Assembly: GCA_905234075.1 (NCBI GenBank)
Contig: CAJOGI010000006.1
Coordinates: 44,127-108,126, forward strand
Origin: an uncultured Synergistales bacterium
GTDB lineage: Bacteria > Synergistota > Synergistia > Synergistales > Aminobacteriaceae
Direction: 5' to 3'
Length of the DNA stretch: 64,000 bases
The position numbers were made by a program, and so were the translations under genes. This document shows, piece after piece, positions 40,231 to 40,591 of this stretch (position 1 is the stretch's first letter; each line of letters opens with the position of its first letter). Under the pieces are notes generated by a model. It was given only the letters and a program-made list of their open reading frames with translations. It did no database searches and was not told the origin of the DNA.

Positions 40231-40257
40231 GTATTTTTACCTCAATGTTAATTTCTG

Positions 40258-40266
40258 TGATAGAAT
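40258..40266 (+). promoter_or_regulatory. Extended -10 promoter for a putative antisense RNA
   Basis: TGATAGAAT (TGn + TAGAAT) on the plus strand, start predicted near 40273. No good -35. It faces the 3' end of the small gene at 40325-40462. Confidence 0.5.
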
Positions 40267-40272
40267 AGGAGC

Positions 40273-40433
40273 AGTGGTGAGGGAGCTAACTAGGCTCCTA
40301 ACGTTCGTAAATTAGCCCGACGCTTTACCGGGCGAACCAATCAATGATTAAAATGATGGTCTTCACGATCCAGTAAAAAGCAACGGCGATCTTATCTATC
40401 CGGTCAAGGAACGAACGCCGCTGCTTCTTTTTT
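40273..40433 (+). ncRNA. Putative antisense RNA to the 45-aa membrane-peptide gene
   Basis: From the extended -10 at 40258-40266 to a terminator-like stem: AGCA-A-CGGCG (40379-40388) pairs with CGCCG-C-TGCT (40416-40425), followed by TCTTTTTT. Inside lie GGAGC/GCTCC and GCCCG/CGGGC (40315-40333) hairpins. The RNA of about 160 nt would cover most of the opposing coding region. Prediction from sequence only. Confidence 0.45.
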
Positions 40434-40462
40434 GGCTTACGTTTGACTTCTTTTTCAGTCAT
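40325..40462 (-). CDS. 45-aa basic single-helix membrane peptide (candidate type I toxin)
   Basis: Found by reading the gap between ybgC and gyrB. The ATG at 40462 has GAGGTGA seven bases upstream. The peptide starts MTEKEVKRKPKKKQRR (ten Lys/Arg in 16), then SFLDRIDKIAVAF and one membrane helix (YWIVKTIILIIDWF), ending A-R-stop. A TATAAT at 40546-40551 and a structured leader precede it; an antisense promoter and terminator lie on the other strand. I do not recognise the family. The layout resembles type I toxins; an ordinary small membrane protein cotranscribed with ybgC is the alternative. Confidence 0.7.
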   Translation of the reverse strand: MTEKEVKRKPKKKQRRSFLDRIDKIAVAFYWIVKTIILIIDWFAR

Positions 40463-40476
40463 AGCCGATTCACCTC

Positions 40477-40572
40477 AATTCCACAGGGCGGCTCCCCGTT
40501 GGACGATGAGCCCTGCTTCTCATCCGGGACTCCCTCGTGAAAATTATTATAACAGAGAAAAATTTTTCACAA
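40477..40572 (-). promoter_or_regulatory. Promoter and structured leader of the 45-aa peptide gene
   Basis: Minus strand: -35 TTGTGA (40567-40572), 15-bp spacer, -10 TATAAT (40546-40551), start near 40539. In the leader GATGAG (40519-40524) pairs with CTCATC (40505-40510), and CAGGG in its loop (40511-40515) can pair with CCCTG (40484-40488), an H-type pseudoknot ending seven bases before the Shine-Dalgarno at 40470-40476. Confidence 0.5.
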
Positions 40573-40585
40573 TAATTCATTTTGC

Positions 40586-40591
40586 TATAAT
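40586..40591 (+). promoter_or_regulatory. Extended -10 promoter of gyrB
   Basis: TGCTATAAT on the plus strand (hexamer 40586-40591), about 50 bases before the gyrB ATG. Confidence 0.6.

Follow-up and report, generated by a model that had tools for sequence, protein, structure and literature searches.

In Helicobacter and its relatives, the primary aapA mRNA is locked by a long-distance interaction between its 5' and 3' ends, and trimming of the 3' end activates it (PMC6733600). A 5'-3' fold-back of the hok mRNA is supported by covariation (Gultyaev 1997, as cited in PMC6733600). In timP, a pseudoknot in the mRNA controls translation and is needed for it (PMC11228461). For RatA, SR6 and SR4, the summary in PMC12390103 describes antisense action by RNase III cleavage or mRNA refolding. 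According to the same 2025 paper, the known range of type I systems was confined to Proteobacteria, Firmicutes and Tenericutes, apart from its own candidate in Cyanobacteria, and detection bias is suspected behind this range (PMC12390103).

Here we describe a compact element of about 300 bp (40256-40554) between ybgC and gyrB in an uncultured member of the Synergistales, whose genome amounts to 1.84 Mb in 18 contigs. Positions refer to the window, that is, the whole stretch of 64,000 nucleotides that was analysed. We consider it very likely that this element represents a new family of type I toxin-antitoxin modules.

Layout and distribution of the element

The element encodes on the minus strand a basic, single-helix peptide of 45 aa, MTEKEVKRKPKKKQRRSFLDRIDKIAVAFYWIVKTIILIIDWFAR (40325-40462), the putative toxin. 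Its ribosome-binding site, a Shine-Dalgarno (SD) sequence, reads directly as GAGGTGA (40470-40476, minus strand), and the GGTG is nearly invariant in alignment A3, which comprises 92 copies. An extended −10, TGTTATAAT (40546-40554, minus strand), forms the left edge of the element and would start the peptide mRNA near 40539, with a leader of about 77 nt on this strand. The predicted toxin mRNA, delimited by this promoter and a terminator hairpin GGAG...CTCC (40268-40298, minus strand), is about 280 nt long (40258-40539, minus strand). A U-rich tract follows the hairpin and overlaps the antisense −10; because this tract is the complement of that −10, the sense terminator and the antisense promoter share bases. 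The antisense extended −10, TGTGATAGAAT (40256-40266, plus strand, including TGATAGAAT at 40258-40266), forms the right edge and points into the element. From this conserved promoter, a predicted antisense RNA of about 160 nt, the candidate antitoxin, would run to a terminator within the coding region (40273-40433, plus strand). The terminator occupies 40381-40433 (plus strand), with a stem pairing 40381-40388 with 40416-40423 and a T tract at 40424-40433. The sequence-only reading had listed the ORF with its good ribosome-binding site, the peptide's own TATAAT promoter, a structured leader, and an opposite-strand extended −10 and stem with T6 ending near 40433; every one of these parts was recovered at its place, and those of the opposite strand are both conserved. 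A consensus-like promoter with an extended −10 also lies before gyrB (40564-40591, plus strand) and is distinct from the element.

The 551 bp around the locus matched several other sites in the same genome, which carries seven copies of the element. A single-sequence search found the peptide in 17 of 41 genomes (its own and relatives). The search for relatives that the earlier reading had called for was more productive with a profile, which detected the peptide in 40 of the 43 genomes of the genus (rumen Synergistaceae), with up to eight copies per genome, and, across the phylum, in 51 of 188 genomes, every one of them from a single family. The total is well over 100 copies, and the named records with relatives are mostly rumen Synergistaceae or Synergistales MAGs, plus one uncultured Fretibacterium MAG. 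Carriage as phage or plasmid cargo was rejected, since no copies occurred in phage records, plasmid records or IMG/VR. A partial relative of the peptide (L092, CACZAW010000176.1) is found on a contig labelled as an uncultured Ruminococcus MAG, through either mis-binning or transfer to Firmicutes.

Tandem arrays are part of this picture, with five copies in 1.5 kb in one case (G041:C147) and four copies spaced by about 370 nt in another (G107:C2). The ybgC-gyrB site is occupied in G000, G046 and G058, as well as in G007 and G008 according to flank similarity, and is empty in at least eight other genomes of the same gene order. In G058 it holds two tandem units and the start of ybgC is duplicated: the duplication (L163, G058:C36) includes the first ybgC codons and may be a direct trace of how tandem arrays arise. 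In the empty sites upstream of gyrB (L160-L189), a likely ybgC promoter (for example TTTGTGATATGATT) lines up with the sense −10 that the element has where the site is occupied. A resident −10 may thus have been the landing point of the element, or have been replaced by it.

Conservation of promoters and RNA structure

The copies align only within the element: flanks are unrelated, and similarity begins at the sense −10 on one side and at the antisense −10 on the other. Conservation of both promoters, another check proposed at the outset, was examined in the 135 copies with enough context, most of which keep the two promoters despite their unrelated flanks. An upstream TATAAT was present in 108 of them, usually 86-95 nt before the start codon, and TGNTATAAT in 90, against 1 in shuffled sequences. 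The antisense −10, 29-85 nt past the stop codon, matched a strict pattern in 117 of the 135 copies and a looser one in 130, the looser pattern being matched 24 times by shuffles. The strict pattern left out ATTATAACA, which is TGTTATAAT on the antisense strand and which several of the failing copies carry. No conserved −35 was found at the promoters across copies; none is expected for extended −10 promoters. A generic promoter and terminator scan of the locus gave no terminator-like site and was uninformative, since it allows loops of 3-8 nt and misses the antisense terminator, whose loop is about 27 nt. The evidence for the element is of a comparative kind.

Over the 92 copies of A3, we modelled a structure of 30 pairs, including a pseudoknot and a long-range helix. 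Overall, 90.5% of cells were paired and 25 pairs showed double changes. There were 216 double-change cells, against a mean of 63 in 500 shuffles, none of which reached 216, and at most 63 in controls with a slid structure. Five helices have covariation support. The first, a 5'-3' clamp, joins GAGGGAG (40530-40536) at the start of the mRNA to CTCCCTC (40279-40285) inside the loop of the sense terminator hairpin, both on the minus strand; 93.6% of its cells are paired, five of its seven pairs show double changes, and variants include GAGGAAG/CTTCCTC, GAGGAGG/CCTCCTC and GAGGGG/CCCCTC beside GAGGGAG/CTCCCTC. The next three, also on the minus strand, form the structured leader as two helices and a pseudoknot. 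P1 (40525-40528 with 40495-40498) has double changes at three of four pairs, and P2 (GATGAG, 40519-40524, with CTCATC, 40505-40510) at all six. In the pseudoknot, CAGGG of the P2 loop (40511-40515) pairs with CCCTG (40484-40488), which adjoins the ribosome-binding site on its upstream side; 96.5% of cells are paired, and CAGGG/CCCTG alternates with CACGG/CCGTG among copies. The fifth helix is the antisense-terminator stem, with double changes at seven of eight pairs. A mutual-information scan made without a prior structure ranked the pseudoknot pair 39-66 first (GC in 70 copies, CG in 20), pair 132-168 of the in-coding stem second and pair 30-45 of P2 fourth. In 87 of 92 copies, a sense terminator hairpin with a stem of four or more base pairs, three or more of them GC, surrounds the clamp loop; with swapped partners the count falls to 72 (stem score 10.9 with own partners, 9.2 ± 0.15 with swapped ones). 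These comparisons indicate that the RNA structure is under selection.

Folds computed with ViennaRNA showed the ribosome-binding site to be no more hidden than in a shuffled context. A conserved anti-SD helix was looked for and discarded: no single conserved partner hides the SD, and an attractive pairing in the window copy, between the SD and the last part of the coding region, is not general across copies. As the ribosome-binding site is not additionally hidden in these folds, an inert state of the mRNA is suggested by the clamp alone. The predicted antisense RNA folds by itself with modest stability (z −1.8 against a simple mononucleotide shuffle).

Two other readings of the element have to be weighed at this point. 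Its complementary ends could be the terminal inverted repeats of a dispersed, non-autonomous mobile repeat of the MITE type, for the clamp is an inverted repeat near both ends, seven copies are dispersed in this genome, and relatives differ in presence or absence at the same site. However, target-site duplications were not above chance, the element contains four more covarying helices, one of them a pseudoknot, its coding frame is selected, and its edges are promoters. We consequently rejected the mobile repeat, which is very improbable in the absence of target-site duplications and with selection on both RNA and peptide. Alternatively, the conserved pseudoknotted RNA could be a regulatory leader such as a riboswitch, the antisense promoter being incidental. 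This seems more improbable still: the leader has no Rfam match and, in the window genome, is found nowhere but with these peptides; conservation of the antisense promoter and terminator equals that of the leader, and the clamp reaches the terminator.

The antisense terminator lies within codons. Its stem pairs CAGCGGCG, encoding Gln-Arg-Arg, with CGCCGCTG in the Ala-Ala-Ala region, and its T tract comes from the Lys and Arg codons before Gln-Arg-Arg. In the T tract, AGA accounts for 17 of 28 Arg codons, compared with 12 of 91 in the rest of the N-terminus; for the first Arg of the stem, CGG accounts for 41 of 61 codons, compared with 1 of 39 in gyrB. Arg codon choice is bent to keep both the stem and the A-run, which argues for selection on the terminator. 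Lys codon choice was considered as a further source of the T tract and dismissed, AAA being not clearly enriched (82/134 versus 117/208). Some copies have CAGAGG instead of CAGCGG in the stem; their Ala-Ala-Ala codons shift to match, which alters the protein, for example to Val-Ser-Val in L012. From these alignments, RNA structure steers the choice of codons and apparently even that of amino acids. A KKQRRSYLSGQGTNAAA-like reading on the opposite strand (L001:1707-1794, plus strand, within 40356-40443 of the window, plus strand) matched the family profile weakly; because the terminator stem is near-palindromic, we regard it as an artefact and not as a second gene.

A shared RNA plan and its peptides

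A covariance model of the leader (R1) gave seven matches in the window genome, each just upstream of one of the seven peptide copies. It also matched leaders in a second family of Synergistota, where the peptide profile finds nothing, and these leaders precede other short hydrophobic peptides, such as MARKKSLQMALWIALLALLLGAATRFLEALVDLIRIVL. Conversely, a model built from three second-family leaders (R2) found the window leader with an E value of 4e-6. The clamp recurs as 7-8 perfect base pairs at 9 of 10 second-family loci, and its sequences differ between loci (GGAGAGG, GAACAGG, GAGCAGG, GAAGAGG, GATGAGG and CGGAAGGG, each with its complement). Most of these loci also have an antisense extended −10 about 100 nt past the stop codon. 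Seven of their antisense terminators were examined, and each is a strong hairpin followed by T5-T8, with a sequence unlike that of the window terminator. One second-family match of R1 (L254) lacks a convincing peptide and is either a decayed copy or a false hit. As read from these sequences, the RNA plan outlasts the peptide, recurring where the peptide is unrecognisable and where the paired sequences differ yet remain complementary.

The type I layout suggested initially is supported by the small membrane peptide, the conserved antisense promoter and terminator, and the covarying stem. What had been named as evidence against it, homologues keeping the peptide without the antisense promoter or terminator, is not the pattern we found: the antisense promoter marks the element's conserved right-hand boundary, the terminator stem covaries, and the second family has different, equally good terminators. 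Beyond the reach of that initial reading were the multicopy, family-wide nature of the element, the leader pseudoknot and the pairing of the mRNA's 5' end with the loop of its own terminator. We lean slightly towards a broader proposal, a type I system defined by its circuit, in which a conserved RNA chassis is combined with interchangeable or very fast-evolving toxic peptides in at least two families of Synergistota. The parts of this chassis, put forward with the same slight preference, would be the pseudoknotted leader, the clamp from the 5' end to the terminator loop, the overlap of sense terminator and antisense promoter, and the in-coding antisense terminator. The leader covariance models offer a way of locating type I loci even when sequence comparison does not reveal the peptide.

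As to the peptide itself, AlphaFold2 predicted one helix (residues 15-44), with a pLDDT of 86-96 over residues 21-45. The 69 closer pairs have a median dN/dS of 0.21 (0.43 when every comparable pair is included), a clear indication of a real gene under purifying selection. Several copies are nevertheless broken: the G007 orthologue (L010) has a frameshift in the A-run, L018 and L020 have a premature TAA, L050 has lost its start codon, and insertions interrupt L030, L040 and L112 at about the same codon. Broken copies are common among chromosomal toxin genes, as shown for hok (PMC6733600). The breaks in L030 (G014:C30), L112 (G010:C1) and L040 (G009:C73) fall within a few bases of each other, after ...ALYW/AYWVV, and two of these copies are interrupted by the same kind of sequence (TYSPRLK...); this suggests a site-specific insertion repeatedly disabling the toxin.

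The peptide is probably toxic. Many small membrane proteins are regulators, and the same RNA switch might control a non-toxin of this kind, such as a stress-induced protein regulating a membrane enzyme. The clear purifying selection on the peptide is in line with such a protein. Yet for a specific regulator one would expect a single peptide to be retained at a single locus. What we see instead are numerous, tandem and frequently broken copies, a ybgC-gyrB site that is occupied in some genomes of the genus and empty in others, and, elsewhere, unrecognisably different hydrophobic peptides carried by the same RNA plan. We judge a non-toxin regulator unlikely and retain the toxin-antitoxin module.

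Proposed mechanism and comparison with known systems

Comparison of copies established a basic peptide, convergent extended −10 promoters, an antisense terminator within codons, a pseudoknotted leader and a clamp. We propose that the peptide, in excess, would damage the membrane. By analogy with the hok and aapA mRNAs, the clamp may keep the full-length mRNA inert and stable, and the mRNA would become translatable once its 3' end is trimmed or remodelled and the clamp opens; the leader pseudoknot probably sets ribosome loading. Antisense pairing may begin at the sense terminator loop, because the 5' hairpin loop of the antisense RNA repeats GAGGGAG and could kiss it. From there the duplex would extend across the 3' portion of the mRNA into most of the coding region, destroying or locking the mRNA. 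About 37 nt separate the end of the predicted antisense RNA from the ribosome-binding site, so its probable mode of action is duplex cleavage or refolding rather than occlusion of that site.

None of Pfam, NCBIfam, PHROGs, PADLOC and Rfam gave a usable family match, the same outcome as that of the initial reading, which could not assign the peptide to a known family. The family was found undescribed in the open-licence literature, a comparison with T1TAdb lying outside this scope. Fst, Ldr, TxpA, Ibs and TisB gave no match above cut-off in Pfam, NCBIfam or Rfam, where a model for each of these families was not confirmed, and Hok in Pfam gave only chance matches below cut-off.

The window family resembles aapA/IsoA of Helicobacter and relatives in its several chromosomal copies, putative small membrane toxin and predicted cis-overlapping antisense RNA (PMC6733600). 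However, the aapA 3' end hides the SD itself, whereas here the 3' end pairs with the extreme 5' end and the leader is a conserved pseudoknot; a long-distance interaction hiding the SD was not found, SD accessibility being not lower than in a shuffled context. No AapA-family match was obtained in Pfam, NCBIfam or PHROGs, libraries in which an AapA model was not confirmed. With hok/Sok the family shares the 5'-3' fold-back of the full-length mRNA, here a covarying clamp, and with HokB a basic N-terminus (PMC8309996); it differs in where the predicted antisense RNA lies, namely across the coding region and 3' end and not over the leader region. Like timP/TimR, it has a pseudoknot upstream of the SD in the toxin mRNA, here supported by covariation, but the sequence differs and there is no peptide match. 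Moreover, timP reportedly needs no processing (PMC11228461), unlike the window mRNA, for which the clamp suggests processing or remodelling.

The Bacillus systems bsrG/SR4, txpA/RatA and yonT/SR6, as outlined in PMC12390103, likewise have antisense RNAs that do not cover the ribosome-binding site. They show no peptide match, and the leader and clamp are specific to the window family, whose predicted antisense RNA would traverse most of the coding region and has its terminator there. The Microcystis pair msoT1/msoA1 is similarly a candidate type I pair outside the classical phyla, although it belongs to another phylum and comes with no comparable RNA covariation in the relevant sections of PMC12390103. 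Altogether, the kind of system is known; to the extent that these tools reveal, what is new is the family, its phylum and the way its parts are combined. If it is type I, a near-universal family in a rumen Synergistota genus would fill part of the phylum gap. Comparison of its copies also supports, with unusual strength, the presence of both a 5'-3' clamp and a leader pseudoknot in a single mRNA.
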